The notes under the pieces were generated by a model. The model saw only the letters and a list, made by a program, of their open reading frames with translations, did no database searches and was not told the DNA's origin. From the NCBI GenBank assembly GCA_002951995.1, contig CP019797.1:604501-668500 (forward strand): a stretch of 64,000 nucleotides of DNA. Direction: 5' to 3'. The position numbers were made by a program, and so were the translations under genes. Position 1 is the first letter of the stretch. The number at the start of each line of letters is the position of its first letter. The stretch comes from Stenotrophomonas acidaminiphila. Lineage in GTDB: Bacteria; Pseudomonadota; Gammaproteobacteria; Xanthomonadales; Xanthomonadaceae. Shown in pieces: positions 1,618-51,760 of the stretch.

Positions 1618-2505
1618 ATGACCCAACGCAAAGGCATCATCCTCGCCGGCGGTTCCGGCACGCGCCTGTATCCGATCACCAAGGGCGTCAGCAAGCAGCT
1701 GCTGCCGGTGTACGACAAGCCGATGATCTACTACCCGCTGAGCGTGTTGATGATGGCCGGCATCCGCGAGGTGCTGATCATCAACACCCCGCACGAGCAG
1801 GCGTTGTTCCAGGCATTGCTGGGCGACGGCTCGCAGTGGGGCATGGACATCCGCTACGCGGTGCAGCCGAGCCCCGACGGGCTGGCGCAGGCCTACCTGA
1901 TCGGCCGCGATTTCGTCGGCGGCAAGCCGAGCTGCCTGGTGCTGGGCGACAACATCTTCCACGGCCACGGCCTGCGCCAGCTGCTGCGCAGCGCCGATGC
2001 GCGCGAGGCCGGGGCGACCGTGTTCGGTTACTGGGTCAATGACCCGGAGCGTTATGGCGTGGCCGAGTTCGATCGCGACGGCAAGGTCGTCGGCCTGGTC
2101 GAGAAGCCGCAGAACCCGCGCTCCAACTACGCGGTCACCGGGCTTTATTTCTATGACGGCAATGCCAGCGACTACGCGGCCGCGCTCAGGCCCTCGCCGC
2201 GCGGGGAGCTGGAGATCACCGACCTGAACAAGTGCTACCTGGACGCGGGCACGCTGTACCTGGAGCAGCTCGGGCGTGGCTATGCCTGGCTCGACACCGG
2301 CACCCACCAGTCGCTGCTGGAGGCGTCCAACTTCATCGAGACCATCCAGACCCGGCAGGGCCTGCAGGTCTGCTGCCCCGAGGAAATCGCCTATGGGCAG
2401 GGCTGGATCGGCGCGGCCGAACTGGAGGCGCTGGCCGCGCCGCTGCTCAAGAACGGCTATGGCCAGTACCTGCAGAAGCTGCTGCAGCGCGGGGTGGTGC
2501 CATGA
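1618..2505 (+). CDS. rfbA: Glucose-1-phosphate thymidylyltransferase
   Basis: RfbA (RmlA) joins dTTP and glucose-1-phosphate to make dTDP-glucose, the entry step to dTDP-L-rhamnose. The 295-residue length is normal. The nucleotidyltransferase signature GGSGTRLYP is at 11-19, followed by the sugar-phosphate loop with [23 protein letters not shown] and [16 protein letters not shown] mark the rest of the active site. The ATG at 1618 has a GGAG upstream. Its stop overlaps the rfbC start in an ATGA, so the two genes are probably translationally coupled. Confidence 0.97.
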
Positions 2506-46950: not shown

Positions 46951-48948
46951 ATGTACGGGCGGCGCCAGCACAAGAACCCGCAGGCCGAGGTCGAGCAGTT
47001 CCGGCGCCGTGCGGCGGTCGGCTTCCTCGGCGTGCTGCTGGGGCTGGGCGTGCTGGCCGGCTGGTACTTCAAGCTGCAGGTGCTGGACCACGACGTCTAC
47101 GCCACCCGTTCGGAAGCCAACCGCATCAAGGCGCGGCCGGTGGTGCCCGGGCGCGGCTTGATCTACGACCGCAAGGGCCGCCTGCTGGCCGAGAACGTGC
47201 CGGCGTTCCGCCTGGACGTGACCCCGAACAAGGTCCAGGACATGGCCGCCACGCTGGCCGGGCTGCGCGCGATCTTTTCGTTGAGCGACGAGGACATCGA
47301 GCGCTTCAACCAGTCGCGTAAGGCGCGGCGCAGCTTCATGCCGGTGACGCTGAAGCTGCGCGTCAGCGACGAGGAAATGGCGCGCTTCGCGGTCGACCGC
47401 TGGCGCTACCCGGGGGTGGAGCTGGAGCCGTACCTGACCCGCCGCTACCCCTACGGCGACCTGTTGGCGCACGTCATCGGCTACGTCGGCCGGGTCGACG
47501 ACAAGGACCTGCAGGAGCTGGGCGAGGGCAATGCGGCGCTGACCCATATCGGCAAGTCCGGGCTGGAGCGCTATTACGAGGACCGGCTGCGCGGCAGGAT
47601 CGGCTACGAGCGGGTGGAGACCAATGTGCAGGGCCGGGCGATCCGCACGCTCGGCCGGGTACCGGCGCAGTCGGGCGCCGACCTGCGGCTGTCGATCGAC
47701 GTCGACCTGCAGCAGGCGATGGTGACCGCATTCGGCGAGCAGGAAGGGTCGGCGGTGGCGATCGACCCGCGCACCGGCGAGATCCTGGCCATGGTCAGCC
47801 TGCCTTCGTACGACCCCAACCTGTTCGTCAACGGCATTTCCCACGCCGACTTCAAGCGCCTCAACGAAAACCCCTCGCGGCCGCAGTTCAACCGCCTGGT
47901 GCTGGGCGGCGTGGCGCCGGGCTCCACGGTCAAGCCGTTCCTGGGCCTGGCCGGGCTCGACAGCGGCCTGCGCCGGCCCGAGGACAAGATCCTCTCGCGC
48001 GGCATGTTCTACCTGCCGGGCGTGAGCCGCGGCTGGGGCGACGCCAATCGCGGCGGCCACGGCTGGACCGACCTGCGCAAGTCGATCTCGCAGTCGGTGA
48101 ACACCTACTACTACCAGCTCGGCGTGGACATGGGCGTGGAGCGCTATGACCAGTACATGGGCGGCCACTACGGCTTCGGCCAGCCCACTGGCATCGACCT
48201 GGCCGGCGAGATCGGCGGCATCCTGCCGTCGCCGGCGGCCAAGGCGCGGCTGCGCAACGAGCGCTGGTATCCCGGCGACATGGTCAACGCCAGCATCGGC
48301 CAGGGCCTGTGGAAAGTGACCCCGCTGCAGCTGGTGCGCGGCGTCGGCGGGCTGGCCTCCGGGCAGTTGCGCCGGCCGCACCTGGTGGTCGAACAGAAGG
48401 TCGGCTTCGACCATGACTGGACGCCGCTGCCGCAGCCCGCACCGCGGCCGATCAGCCCCAATCCTGGCAACCTGCAGGCCGTGCGCGAAGGCATGATGGG
48501 CACCATGCAGCCGGGCGGCAGCGGCTGGCGGGTGGCGGCCGGCGCGCCGTACCTGATGGCCGGCAAGACCGGTACCGCGCAGGTGGTCAGCCGCAAGGGC
48601 ACCGCCGCGGTGAACCCGAAGAGCCTGCCGATGCATCTGCGCCACCGCGCGTTGTTCATCGGCTTCGCCCCGGCCGAGGACCCGCGCATCGCCATCGCGG
48701 TCGCGGTCGAGGGCGGCGGCTATGGCGGCGCGGCGGCGGCGCCGATCGCGCGCAAGGTGTTCGATGCCTGGCTGCTCGGGGTGATGCCGGACGTGCAGCA
48801 GGCCGTCGATGCCAGCGGCGTGGCCGAAGGGGCGGCCAACACCGGCTCCGCCGCCCCCGCTCCGGCGCCGGCGGGCGAGCCGCTCCCGACACCGGCACCA
48901 CCGTCGCCGGCATCGTCAGCGGAACCGGTAGCGGAGGAACGGCGATGA
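46951..48948 (+). CDS. mrdA: Penicillin-binding protein 2 (elongation transpeptidase)
   Basis: PBP2 cross-links lateral-wall peptidoglycan together with RodA. The 665-residue protein has one N-terminal membrane anchor (GFLGVLLGLGVLAGWYF), the pedestal domain with RPVVPGRGLIYDRKGRLLAEN, and the transpeptidase with SxxK Ser325-Lys328 (GSTVKP), SxN Ser382-Asn384 (SVNTYY) and KTG 539-541 (AGKTGTAQ). An extended Pro/Ala-rich C-terminal tail follows. The gene overlaps rodA by 4 nt. Confidence 0.96.
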   Translation: MYGRRQHKNPQAEVEQFRRRAAVGFLGVLLGLGVLAGWYFKLQVLDHDVYATRSEANRIKARPVVPGRGLIYDRKGRLLAENVPAFRLDVTPNKVQDMAATLAGLRAIFSLSDEDIERFNQSRKARRSFMPVTLKLRVSDEEMARFAVDRWRYPGVELEPYLTRRYPYGDLLAHVIGYVGRVDDKDLQELGEGNAALTHIGKSGLERYYEDRLRGRIGYERVETNVQGRAIRTLGRVPAQSGADLRLSIDVDLQQAMVTAFGEQEGSAVAIDPRTGEILAMVSLPSYDPNLFVNGISHADFKRLNENPSRPQFNRLVLGGVAPGSTVKPFLGLAGLDSGLRRPEDKILSRGMFYLPGVSRGWGDANRGGHGWTDLRKSISQSVNTYYYQLGVDMGVERYDQYMGGHYGFGQPTGIDLAGEIGGILPSPAAKARLRNERWYPGDMVNASIGQGLWKVTPLQLVRGVGGLASGQLRRPHLVVEQKVGFDHDWTPLPQPAPRPISPNPGNLQAVREGMMGTMQPGGSGWRVAAGAPYLMAGKTGTAQVVSRKGTAAVNPKSLPMHLRHRALFIGFAPAEDPRIAIAVAVEGGGYGGAAAAPIARKVFDAWLLGVMPDVQQAVDASGVAEGAANTGSAAPAPAPAGEPLPTPAPPSPASSAEPVAEERR

Positions 48949-50075
48949 GGGATTTCCTGCGCTGGCTGCTGGAGATGGCGCAGCGCCTTACCCGCGGCCT
49001 CGACTGGCCGCTGCTGCTGGCGCTGTGCGCGCTGATGGGCATGGGCCTGGCGGTGCTGGACAGCGCCGGCGGCAGCGGCCTGGTGATGGCCCAGGGCGCG
49101 CGCTTCGCGGTGGGCCTGGTGGCGATGTGGGCGATCGCGCGGGTGCCGGTGCTGCGCATCCGCGCCTGGACGCCGATGATCTACGCGCTGTCGATGCTGC
49201 CGTTGCTGGCGGTGTTCGTGCTGGGCACCGGCAAGTACGGGCGCCAGTGGCTGGACCTGAAGCTGTTCTACCTGCAGCCGGCCGAGCTGCTCAAGGTGAG
49301 CATGCCGATGATGGTGGCGTGGTACCTGCACCGGATGCCGTTGCCGCCGCGGATACCGGTGGTGCTGGTCGCCGGCCTGATCATCGGCGTGCCCACCGCG
49401 CTGGTGATGCTGCAGCCGGACCTGGGTACCGCCATGCTGATCGCCGCCAGCGGCGTCTTCGTCCTGTACCTGTCGGGCATGCCGTGGTGGTGGTTCATCA
49501 CCGCCGGCACCGTCGGCGGCAGCGCGCTGGCGGTAGTGCTGTTCGCGCCGATCTCGTGGTTCTCGTTCCTGCGTCCCTACCAGCAGGATCGCATCCTCAC
49601 TTTCCGCGATCCGGACAACGATCCGCTGGGCGCTGGCTGGAACATCATCCAGTCCAAGATCGCCATCGGCTCGGGCGGATTGACCGGCAAGGGATGGGGG
49701 CTGGGGTCGCAGTCGCACCTGAACTTCATCCCCGAGCAGACCACCGACTTCGCGTTCTCGGTGCTGAGCGAGGAATTCGGCTGGCTGGGCGTGGCGATCG
49801 TGATCGCGCTGTACATCTTCATCATCGGCCGCTGCCTGTGGATCGCGGCGCAGTCGCGCGATGGCTTCTCGCGGCTGGTCGCCGGCGCCACCGGCCTGTC
49901 GTTCTTCGTCTATGCGCTGGTCAACGGCGGCATGATTTCGGGCCTGCTGCCGGTGGTGGGCGTGCCGATGCCGCTGATCAGCTACGGCGGTACCGCCGCG
50001 GTGTCGCTGCTGGCCGGGTTCGGCCTGGTGATGGCCGCGCGCAGCTACAACCCGGTGCACGGCGGCCACGGCTGA
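48945..50075 (+). CDS. rodA: Peptidoglycan polymerase RodA
   Basis: RodA is the SEDS-family glycosyltransferase that polymerises lipid II. The 376-residue protein has about ten membrane helices and the SEDS markers KYGRQWLDLK, FFYLQPAELLK-like LFYLQPAELLKVSMP, GWGLGSQSHLNFIPEQTTDF and the C-terminal PLISYGGTAAVSLLAGFG. The catalytic Asp region lies in QPDLGTA. ATGA overlap with mrdA indicates coupling. It ends the elongasome operon, and the following gap carries a candidate small RNA. Confidence 0.96.
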   Translation: MRDFLRWLLEMAQRLTRGLDWPLLLALCALMGMGLAVLDSAGGSGLVMAQGARFAVGLVAMWAIARVPVLRIRAWTPMIYALSMLPLLAVFVLGTGKYGRQWLDLKLFYLQPAELLKVSMPMMVAWYLHRMPLPPRIPVVLVAGLIIGVPTALVMLQPDLGTAMLIAASGVFVLYLSGMPWWWFITAGTVGGSALAVVLFAPISWFSFLRPYQQDRILTFRDPDNDPLGAGWNIIQSKIAIGSGGLTGKGWGLGSQSHLNFIPEQTTDFAFSVLSEEFGWLGVAIVIALYIFIIGRCLWIAAQSRDGFSRLVAGATGLSFFVYALVNGGMISGLLPVVGVPMPLISYGGTAAVSLLAGFGLVMAARSYNPVHGGHG

Positions 50076-50109: not shown

Positions 50110-50123
50110 TTGATCACGATCAA
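50110..50123 (+). promoter_or_regulatory. Perfect FNR/ANR box
   Basis: TTGATCACGATCAA matches TTGAT-N4-ATCAA at all ten conserved positions. Its centre (50116.5) is 41.5 bp upstream of position 50158, the start predicted by the CACAAT box at 50146-50151. This is exactly the class II activator spacing. Confidence 0.65.
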
Positions 50124-50157
50124 ACACCGGAATTAACAAAAGCGTCACAATGCTCCC

Positions 50158-50324
50158 CGCCACCGGACGCGTCGCGCCGTGGCGGCCGGCCTGCGAATCC
50201 GCGGGACGGCAAGGCCGGGATCCGCCGGCCGGGCGTGGGGAGACGCCCGGCACGTGTCGCGATCCGGTCCGGGCACCGGCTGCACCCACTGGGATGGGGG
50301 GTGCAGCCGGTGCCCAGATTTTTT
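50158..50324 (+). ncRNA. Candidate oxygen-regulated small RNA
   Basis: About 167 nt, from a predicted FNR-dependent start to the T6 run. No open frame with family similarity lies inside. Stems: GCCGGGCGT (50228-50236) / ACGCCCGGC (50243-50251) with a GGGGAG loop, then a perfect 17-bp stem (50271-50287 / 50299-50315) with an 11-nt loop ACTGGGATGGG, then AGATTTTTT. GGA/GGGA motifs lie in both loops. It is not the 3' end of rodA alone, because the FNR box and -10 lie after the rodA stop. Family unknown. Confidence 0.5.
50271..50324 (+). terminator. Strong intrinsic terminator after rodA / candidate sRNA
   Basis: A perfect 17-bp stem starting GGGCACCGGCTGCACCC, 11-nt loop, complementary arm, then AGATTTTTT with six T. 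By stem length it is the strongest terminator in the window. Confidence 0.85.
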
Positions 50325-50623
50325 CTGGCGTCCGCTGGCGTGGTGCGGCGCGTTCCGGCACGCACGTGGCCGGCAGGAAACCTGCGCTCGGTCGCGGCAG
50401 CTGCGGACAGGCCGGTGCGTGCAGCGGGCCGTCCTCCGCGCCGGGTGCGGAGGGGAGCGGGCAGGGCGCCGCGCCGGTACTTTCCGCTGGCAGCGCATTC
50501 AGTTGACGGGGGTCGCATGGACTACCGCCGGCTCCCGGGCCGCCCGTCCCGGGCACTTCCAATCCCTTTGCGATTCATGGTGTTATTGATGGAAATTCAT
50601 CAATGACCTGTTAATCTCGGCTG
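50325..50623. other. Untranslated region before mltB
   Basis: About 300 bp without a supported gene. A small hairpin GCAGG-AAA-CCTGC and GC-rich palindromes are seen. Near the 3' end the sequence becomes AT-richer, with a 7-bp inverted repeat ATTGATG (50585-50591) / CATCAAT (50598-50604) and the likely mltB promoter. Confidence 0.6.
50586..50614 (+). promoter_or_regulatory. Candidate mltB promoter
   Basis: TTGATG (50586-50591) and TGTTAA (50609-50614) with a 17-bp spacer. The predicted start falls within a few bases of the mltB ATG at 50624, and there is no clear Shine-Dalgarno, so mltB may be leaderless. Confidence 0.35.
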
Positions 50624-51760
50624 ATGATTCGACGTGTTCTGGTCTGCTGTCTCACCCTGGGCATGGTCGCCTGCGCGACCCAGCCCCAGGCGCCTGCTCC
50701 CGCTCCGCTCGCGGCGGGCAAACCGATAGGCACCGGCGGTACGCCGGCCGAAGCCGTCCCCGAGCGCAGGTCCGACCTGCCGCCGGTGGACCTGACCCCG
50801 GTGTCGTTCGAGACCGCGCGCGCCAACTTCGTACGCGATACCGCCGCGCGCTACCGGCTGGACCCGGCCTACATCGAATCGGTGCTGGCGCAGGCGCAGA
50901 TCCGCGAACCGATCATCGCCGCCATGGCGCGCCCGGCCGAACGGGTCAAGCCGTGGAACGAGTACCGGCCGATGTTCATCAGCCAGGCGCGCATCGACGG
51001 CGGCCGCAGGTTCCTGGCCACGCACCGCGACGCCCTGCAGCGCGTGCAGGCGCGCAGCGGCGTGCCGGCCGAGGTGATCGTGGCGATCATCGGCGTGGAG
51101 ACCAGTTACGGCGCCAACACCGGCAACCACCGCGTGCTCGATGCGCTGTACACGCTGGCGTTCAAGTACCCGCGCAGCGGCGACCCGGAGAAGCTCGAGC
51201 GCGAAGTGCGCCGCGAACTGTTCTTCCGCGACGAACTGGCCAAGCTGTTCGAACTGGCCGCGCAGGAGAAGCTGGACGTCGCCGCGCTCAAGGGCAGCTA
51301 TGCCGGCGCGATGGGCATGGGCCAGTTCATGCCGTCCAGTTACCTGGACTATGCCGTGGATGGCGACGGCGACGGCCGCCGCGACCTGTTCACCAGCTAC
51401 GACGACGTGTTCGCCTCCATCGCCAACTACTTCGTGAAGAAGGGCGGCTGGGTGCGCGGCGGCACGGTCGCGGTGCCGGCCACGCTCGACGCCGGCCGCG
51501 AGGAACTCAACCCCGTCGACTGGACGCCGACCCTGGGCCTCGACGCCCTGGCCGCCCGCGGCTACCACCCGCGGGTGCCGGTACGCGCGGCCGGGGCCAC
51601 CGCTACCCCGATCACCCTGGAAGGCAGCGACGGCAAGCAGTACTGGCTGGGCTTCCAGAACTACTACGCGATCACCCGTTACAACCTTTCCAAGATGTAC
51701 GCGATGGCCGTGTTCCAGTTGTCGCAGGCCATCGCCGGACAGGAGTTGCCGCCGGCATGA
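50624..51760 (+). CDS. mltB: Lytic murein transglycosylase B
   Basis: MltB cleaves glycan strands, leaving 1,6-anhydro ends. The 378-residue lipoprotein has Cys17 in LGMVAC, then the SLT_2 domain with the catalytic Glu159 in IIGVETSYGANTGNHR, the FKYPRSGDPEK region and the EF-like MGMGQFMPSSYLDYAVDGDGDG. It overlaps rlpA by 4 nt. In this cluster it probably trims new wall made by the RodA/PBP2 complex. Confidence 0.95.
   Translation: MIRRVLVCCLTLGMVACATQPQAPAPAPLAAGKPIGTGGTPAEAVPERRSDLPPVDLTPVSFETARANFVRDTAARYRLDPAYIESVLAQAQIREPIIAAMARPAERVKPWNEYRPMFISQARIDGGRRFLATHRDALQRVQARSGVPAEVIVAIIGVETSYGANTGNHRVLDALYTLAFKYPRSGDPEKLEREVRRELFFRDELAKLFELAAQEKLDVAALKGSYAGAMGMGQFMPSSYLDYAVDGDGDGRRDLFTSYDDVFASIANYFVKKGGWVRGGTVAVPATLDAGREELNPVDWTPTLGLDALAARGYHPRVPVRAAGATATPITLEGSDGKQYWLGFQNYYAITRYNLSKMYAMAVFQLSQAIAGQELPPA

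Follow-up and report, generated by a model that had tools for sequence, protein, structure and literature searches.

A predicted FNR-type-controlled small RNA of Stenotrophomonas that may antagonise the small RNA sX13 through two G-rich hairpin loops

FNR-controlled small RNAs (sRNAs) are known in bacteria and include FnrS, PhrS and AniS, which have an FNR-type promoter with a box near -41.5. RNA antagonists of sRNAs with C-rich loops are known as well, with CJnc180 acting against CJnc190 in Campylobacter and SprY against RNAIII in Staphylococcus. Here we describe a predicted RNA gene that lies between rodA and mltB in a stretch of 64,000 nucleotides (nt) from Stenotrophomonas acidaminiphila (contig CP019797.1, positions 604,501 to 668,500 of the forward strand; hereafter, the window), and we compare it with these systems. 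The window RNA has the FNR-type promoter with a box near -41.5 in common with FnrS, PhrS and AniS, but its likely partner is another sRNA, not mRNAs. Like CJnc180 and SprY, it would antagonise an sRNA with C-rich loops; CJnc180, however, is encoded antisense to its target, with full complementarity, whereas the window RNA lies far from its putative partner, is preceded by an FNR-type promoter and would make contact by means of two short loops.

The predicted partner, sX13 (RF02232), is a structured hairpin-loop sRNA from the same bacterial family as the window RNA, from which it differs in its position beside polA and in having C-rich rather than G-rich loops. According to PMC3771888, sX13 is constitutively expressed in Xanthomonas and represses mRNAs that carry G-rich motifs close to the start site; both the C-rich loops and the G-rich target motifs are needed for repression, and Hfq is unnecessary. 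RsmU and other RNAs that sequester RsmA/CsrA are, like the window RNA, structured and endowed with GGA motifs. RsmU, however, is processed from the 3' end of an mRNA and, in PMC7694677, is reported only from Xanthomonas, and the conserved letters of the window RNA fit sX13 better. We consider it likely that the window RNA is a trans-encoded sRNA that antagonises sX13, is controlled by an FNR-type regulator and relieves mRNAs of repression by sX13 when oxygen is low. With less assurance, we also favour the broader proposition of a circuit that is core to the genus, in which an RNA born in this lineage and controlled by an FNR-type promoter mimics, in its two hairpin loops, the G-rich motifs that sX13 targets. 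Two loop-loop contacts made at once would then catch sX13 at low oxygen, so that its otherwise constant repression would come to depend on oxygen.

A sequence-only reading of this locus had proposed a stand-alone RNA gene with a perfect TTGAT-N4-ATCAA box centred at -41.5 from the start predicted from CACAAT. The letters agree with this to the base, the predicted +1 at 50158 placing the box centre at -41.5, and the gene itself is supported by the conservation of the box and CACAAT and by compensatory changes in the stems. For comparisons across the genus, we used 47 distinct elements that were found by requiring a perfect box and GGGATGGG, so that their loop-2 and box counts hold by construction. 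In these elements, the hexamer located 36 nt from the box start reads CACAAT in 41 of the 47, CACACT in four and GACAAT in two. The genome contains five perfect TTGAT-N4-ATCAA boxes, against none for the backwards control. One of the others (1426068) lies among ccoG- and hemN-like genes and is followed by CACAAT at the identical 22-nt spacing, and another (3254054) adjoins a nirK-like gene, the gene names in both cases being read from translations. The remaining two, G000:C1:1353160 and 2739112, are near response-regulator-like and GAPDH-like genes (again read from translations).

Two hairpins are shown by covariation, and the RNA would consist of a 5' domain followed by these hairpins. Hairpin 2 is the terminator stem, with 17 perfect base pairs (50271-50287 with 50299-50315) around an 11-nt loop (50288-50298); the perfect stem and the six T residues that come after it can be read directly from the letters, and the two G-rich loops that had been reported, GGGGAG and ACTGGGATGGG, are both there. 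From the 47 elements, 33 sequences were drawn by removing those at least 95% alike. In the 33 sequences of hairpin 2, 97.7% of the cells are paired compared with 82.8% in shuffles, and the covariation is 0.596 compared with 0.288, with none of 500 shuffles as high on either count; double-sided changes are found in 10 of 16 pairs (reached by 23 of 500 shuffles), and the number of pair types was reached by five of 500. Hairpin 1 was evaluated in the 16 sequences (15 distinct) of 35 that have a simple loop geometry, namely, 14 of the 33 along with the genomes G221 and G233; in the other 19 of the 33, the loop is in another register or a base is added, and these were left out of this count. Here, 87.3% of the cells are paired compared with 62.2% in shuffles, the covariation is 0.653 compared with 0.177 (0 of 500), and 9 of 10 pairs show double-sided change (reached by one of 500 shuffles). 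RNAalifold, when applied to the full alignment, recovered hairpin 2 and not hairpin 1, a region where MAFFT misaligned several rows.

Unlike the stem letters, those of the loops are nearly fixed. Among 39 genuine matches at named loci, which were collected with neither box nor loop demanded, GGGGAG is kept in 38 and GGGAUGGG also in 38; the exceptions are L034, which reads GGGGAAG, and L061 (S. tumulicola), which is devoid of GGGAUGGG. Stems that were rewritten while holding fixed loops suggest that the loops are likely the part that binds. A clear T-run follows hairpin 2 in S. acidaminiphila, S. humi and others, whereas the S. maltophilia and S. rhizophila groups have just ACCUCU or the like there. 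Because the T-run is weak in these two groups, hairpin 2 has probably been retained for some function besides termination. The earlier description of about 165 nt without a coding frame stands in part: a mechanical frame of 118 amino acids (50150-50506) does cross the RNA, but the indel noted below and the compensatory stem changes oppose coding. As a candidate in its own right, a protein-coding gene was thought unlikely in an informal comparison, given these stem changes and a single-base difference in length between the elements of the near relatives L037 and L038 (236 and 235 nt). A scan of the window against Rfam at gathering thresholds gave no matches.

We looked for sX13 in the genome only after the G-rich loops had suggested it as a partner. 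It is found at the polA locus (RF02232, 108.2 bits), 2.8 Mb from the window RNA by coordinate, and its loops read CUCCCAUCCCCUGGAG and UUCCUCCCCAAAU, displaying the motifs CCCAUCCCC and CUCCCCA. The window RNA is complementary to both motifs, that is, to the target-binding region of another sRNA: its UGGGGAG is perfectly complementary to CUCCCCA, and its GGGAUGGGG forms eight Watson-Crick pairs with UCCCAUCCC of sX13, with a ninth, G-U pair possible. The commoner form of the loop-2 motif in the genus, GGGGAUGGG (37 of the 47 distinct elements), forms nine pairs with sX13. The order of the contacts is antiparallel, loop 1 of the window RNA facing the second sX13 loop and loop 2 facing the first, so that both contacts are possible in one complex; the predicted seed energies are -11.9 and -16.2 kcal/mol. 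Four loop segments are largely unpaired in the fold predictions, two of the window RNA (GGGGAG and GGGAUG) and two of sX13 (CUCCCCA and CAUCCCC). The pattern CCCATCCCC-N15-45-CTCCCCA has a single occurrence in the genome, within sX13. Both complements (8 and 7 nt) appear in 33 of 20,000 dinucleotide (composition-matched) shuffles of sX13, and both loop motifs in three of 5,000 shuffles of the window RNA.

Next to sX13, on its downstream side, lies a gene (start MSDMFALAMPWWEF) whose ribosome-binding site is AGGGGGATGGGCCGATG (L153 ~2300-2340, minus strand, G000:C1:3446819-3446827). This site is a 9-nt perfect match to sX13 loop 1 and is among the GGGGATGGG sites of the genome; judging by this match, the gene is likely an sX13 target and would lend itself to use as a reporter. 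Because a GGGGATGGG site serves there as a ribosome-binding site, the loop of the window RNA looks like a copy of a target site.

The features of the locus are collected in Table 1. The genome that carries them amounts to 3.66 Mb in one contig, and its rodA product is 98% identical to the counterpart in S. acidaminiphila JCM 13310. Immediately before mltB, at 50574-50620, the window and relatives share a conserved block, TTCATGGTGTTA...AATTCATC.ATGACCTG.TAA, which is probably the promoter or leader of mltB.

Table 1. Features of the rodA-mltB region, with positions counted from the first letter of the window
Feature	Position	Strand	Remarks
rodA	48945-50075		TIGR02210; upstream neighbour of the RNA
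FNR-type box, perfect, TTGATCACGATCAA	50110..50123	+	TTGAT 50110-50114, CACG, ATCAA 50119-50123; centre 50116.5
-10 element CACAAT	50146..50151	+	22 nt past the box
Predicted RNA, ~167 nt	50158..50324	+	Start inferred from the promoter
Hairpin 1	50228..50251	+	Stem GCCGGGCGU/ACGCCCGGC; hexaloop GGGGAG 50237-50242; UGGGGAG 50236-50242 complementary to sX13 CUCCCCA
Hairpin 2 (terminator stem)	50271..50315	+	Motif GGGAUGGGG 50291-50299, complementary to sX13 CCCAUCCC, 8 pairs
T6 tail of the terminator	50319..50324	+	Weak or missing in the S. maltophilia and S. rhizophila groups
mltB	50624-51760		TIGR02282; downstream neighbour of the RNA

A covariance search over relatives, which had been put forward as a check on the RNA gene, found the box and stems conserved in the genus. 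The model, R1, covers the 3' two-hairpin part and was built from the 33 sequences. Applied to 80 named rodA loci, it gave 40 matches, 39 of them genuine (the dropped row is a weak antisense match on the minus strand of L046); the box is perfect in 37 of the 39, has one mismatch in L091 and is absent from L061. R1 found no match in the other 41 named rodA loci, whose names are mostly Xanthomonas, Pseudoxanthomonas or Lysobacter. The loci named Stenotrophomonas that have none are L043, L052 and L057, where contigs end early, and L090 and L110. Conversely, L060, named Xanthomonas chitinilytica, has a match, and the same contig belongs to G306, which the genome set places in Stenotrophomonas. One record with a Stenotrophomonas-like rodA locus and the RNA, L084 (JAHREJ010000014.1), is entered as Bacillus subtilis SK7B5; this record is mislabelled or contaminated.

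Among the genomes of the genus, 89 of 91 match R1, with one match each except for G302, which has two, near both ends of one contig, as with its rodA. The RNA was not found in two draft genomes, G316 and G338, and neither of these gave a rodA match at E<=1e-120 either. Across the family sample, 35 of 395 genomes match, 34 of these in the genus; the sole match outside it, G376 (39.8 bits), has neither of the loop motifs and no box. These genus and family searches were run with stricter filters, at which some weak matches can escape. A plain DNA search over the family matched 128 of 297 genomes at E<=0.01 and was convincing beyond the own genome only for G233 and G221, both of the same genus; the others, among the matches listed, are short and weak, with E of 5e-6 or higher. 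As far as seen in these searches, the RNA appears specific to the genus Stenotrophomonas.

The predicted partner has a wider range. Within the genus, sX13 is present in 89 of 91 genomes (the misses are G308 and G316), and both motifs stand at the right spacing in all 51 genus sX13 loci examined; the pairing region is conserved where both RNAs occur, with the exceptions of L034 in loop 1 and S. tumulicola L061 in loop 2. Among 56 genomes comprising four special cases and 52 intended as one per genus, 52 have an sX13 match at E<=0.001 and 40 pass the family cut-off. By eye, loop 1 of sX13 in 29 other-genus sequences reads CCCAUCCCC in nine, CCCUCCCC, which is devoid of AU, in 17 (L259-L264 and L266-L276) and otherwise in three. 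On these sequences, the loop 1 that the window RNA matches is one of at least two versions, and the RNA has the AU of its own lineage's sX13, a correspondence that is weaker than true co-variation. In S. tumulicola (G369; RNA at L239, named locus L061), there is no box, loop 2 is reduced to GGGGGUGGGGG without GAU, and an L147-type FNR (see below) was not found in the genome; possibly, the circuit is decaying in this species, although the missing L147 carries little weight because 20 other genomes are also without it.

The genome encodes two candidate FNR-type regulators with a cysteine cluster. L147 has the cluster CSTCAFSQAC, its best NCBIfam match is Fnr at 195.6 bits (below the cut-off of 228), and its nearest solved structures are titled 'FNR type regulator'. 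L146 has the cluster CLHCSVRHLSVC, and its best NCBIfam match is FnrL at 157.1 bits (below the cut-off of 300). A further protein, L148, looks like Clp. Relatives of L147 are found in 70 of the 91 genus genomes (E<=1e-30).

The proposed mechanism involves the following steps. At low oxygen, an FNR-type regulator would bind the box at -41.5 and activate transcription, as the site, its spacing and its conservation suggest. The RNA would then fold into the 5' domain and the two hairpins presenting GGGGAG and GGGAUGGGG, and these loops would pair with CUCCCCA and CCCAUCCCC of sX13 in antiparallel order; the complementarity can be seen in the two RNAs, and the single complex is what it would allow. 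Binding would titrate sX13 or lead to its decay and would release the mRNAs whose G-rich ribosome-binding sites it represses, assuming that sX13 acts as published for Xanthomonas. The links of this chain, as we infer them, are a transcript that starts at 50158, its activation by an FNR-type protein when oxygen is low, binding between the loops in vivo and the lifting of repression by sX13. An additional contact, between sX13 loop 3 and a third G-rich run (AGGGGG), may exist in the S. maltophilia and S. rhizophila groups; a weak lead for it is that G-runs in the 5' half occur in 33 of the 47 elements, against 24.4 expected.

Several observations weigh against an oxygen-controlled antagonist of sX13. 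The transcript, its oxygen response and the binding are predictions from sequence. Relatives of L147 were not found in 21 of the 91 genus genomes at E<=1e-30, and because 14 of these 21 (G301, G304, G305, G308, G312, G145, G314, G245, G331, G332, G336, G341, G352 and G367) have a perfect box, L147 cannot be the sole activator; the others are G369, without the box, G316, without an RNA match, and G307, G195, G347, G349 and G356, which fall outside the box count. Given that L147 is not found in many box-bearing genomes, an L146-type regulator, or L146 and L147 together, may act on the box. In G221 and G233, both RNA loops are kept and the right (second) half-site of the box is degraded (TTGATctcgGTCAT). 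According to the fold predictions, stems take up the last three G of loop 2 of the window RNA as well as two C of sX13, namely, those that open CCCAUCCCC. The genome has 24 GGGGATGGG sites on both strands compared with eight for the backwards control, and seeds of G-rich against C-rich sequence arise easily in such genomes. Outside the genus, sX13 keeps both motifs in eight of the 29 sequences, and R1 finds nothing there except for one weak case; because other genera share this form of sX13 without the RNA, the two RNAs show no compensatory changes that match loop by loop. Finally, G308 (RNA at L236) has both loops intact and no sX13 match in its assembly, perhaps an assembly gap, which is possible because G312 has sX13 matches near contig ends.

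If the sX13 match were incidental or secondary, the window RNA could be an FNR-activated sRNA that pairs directly with C-rich mRNA sites, in the manner of FnrS and PhrS. The promoter logic would be identical, any CCCAUCCC or CUCCCC site would be a possible pairing partner of the loops, and the abundance of GGGGATGGG sites given above fits such an arrangement. Nevertheless, there is no second place in the genome with both complements at the sX13 spacing, and it is one RNA that both conserved loops match, in antiparallel order, which makes direct mRNA pairing an unlikely explanation.

Still less probable is an RNA that sequesters RsmA/CsrA, with the GGA of the two hairpins binding an RsmA dimer at low oxygen, a sponge function that the sequence-only reading had suggested. 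GGA does occur in both hairpin loops, followed in one of them by UG, ANGGA is present somewhere in 18 of the 47 distinct elements, and an RsmA-binding sRNA, RsmU, is known in Xanthomonas (PMC7694677). The window RNA, however, has five GGA compared with 3.8 expected in shuffles, so that GGA is not enriched beyond chance, and it has no ANGGA, which is also absent from 29 of the 47 elements. Furthermore, the conserved loop letters extend past GGA as pairing with sX13 requires, and the conserved G residues after GGAU would be useless in an RsmA site of the usual consensus. The sponge suggestion thus finds little support.

The box lies from 19 to 2,152 nt past the end of the rodA match, and in many species a second rodA or other sequence comes between; from the box to mltB, the distance in the S. 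maltophilia complex is nearly constant, 345-350 nt. As a separate observation, many Stenotrophomonas, including the S. maltophilia complex (L032, L037-L041, L045-L046 and others), have directly behind rodA a second rodA-like gene that is 62-68% identical to it and is not found in the window, where rodA is followed by mltB. That there is no separate RNA, and that the feature is just where the rodA transcript ends at its terminator or else a long mltB leader, is very unlikely: the position between the two genes, the ability of hairpin 2 with its T6 to end rodA transcription and, in the S. maltophilia complex, the steady distance to mltB and the weak T-run would all fit, but the RNA keeps its own promoter, with a fixed spacing from box to CACAAT, while its distance from rodA varies, the stems and loops are conserved beyond the needs of a terminator, and in the window the hairpin with T6 stands between the RNA and mltB.

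In the open-access literature, including PMC3771888, PMC7694677 and PMC8687705, we found neither this RNA nor any antagonist of sX13 described; subscription papers, possible sRNA surveys of S. maltophilia among them, were outside this scope. If the window RNA is indeed an FNR-controlled antagonist of sX13, a dedicated oxygen-controlled RNA would give sX13, which is widely conserved in Xanthomonadaceae, an input signal. Because S. maltophilia does not have the type III secretion system, through which sX13 is best known, the sX13 authors expect another role for it there (PMC3771888). With a dedicated antagonist, the role of sX13 in Stenotrophomonas would become directly testable, and the genus would have, in nearly all of its examined genomes, including those of S. 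maltophilia, an sRNA that is encoded in trans and antagonises another sRNA by way of two hairpin loops.
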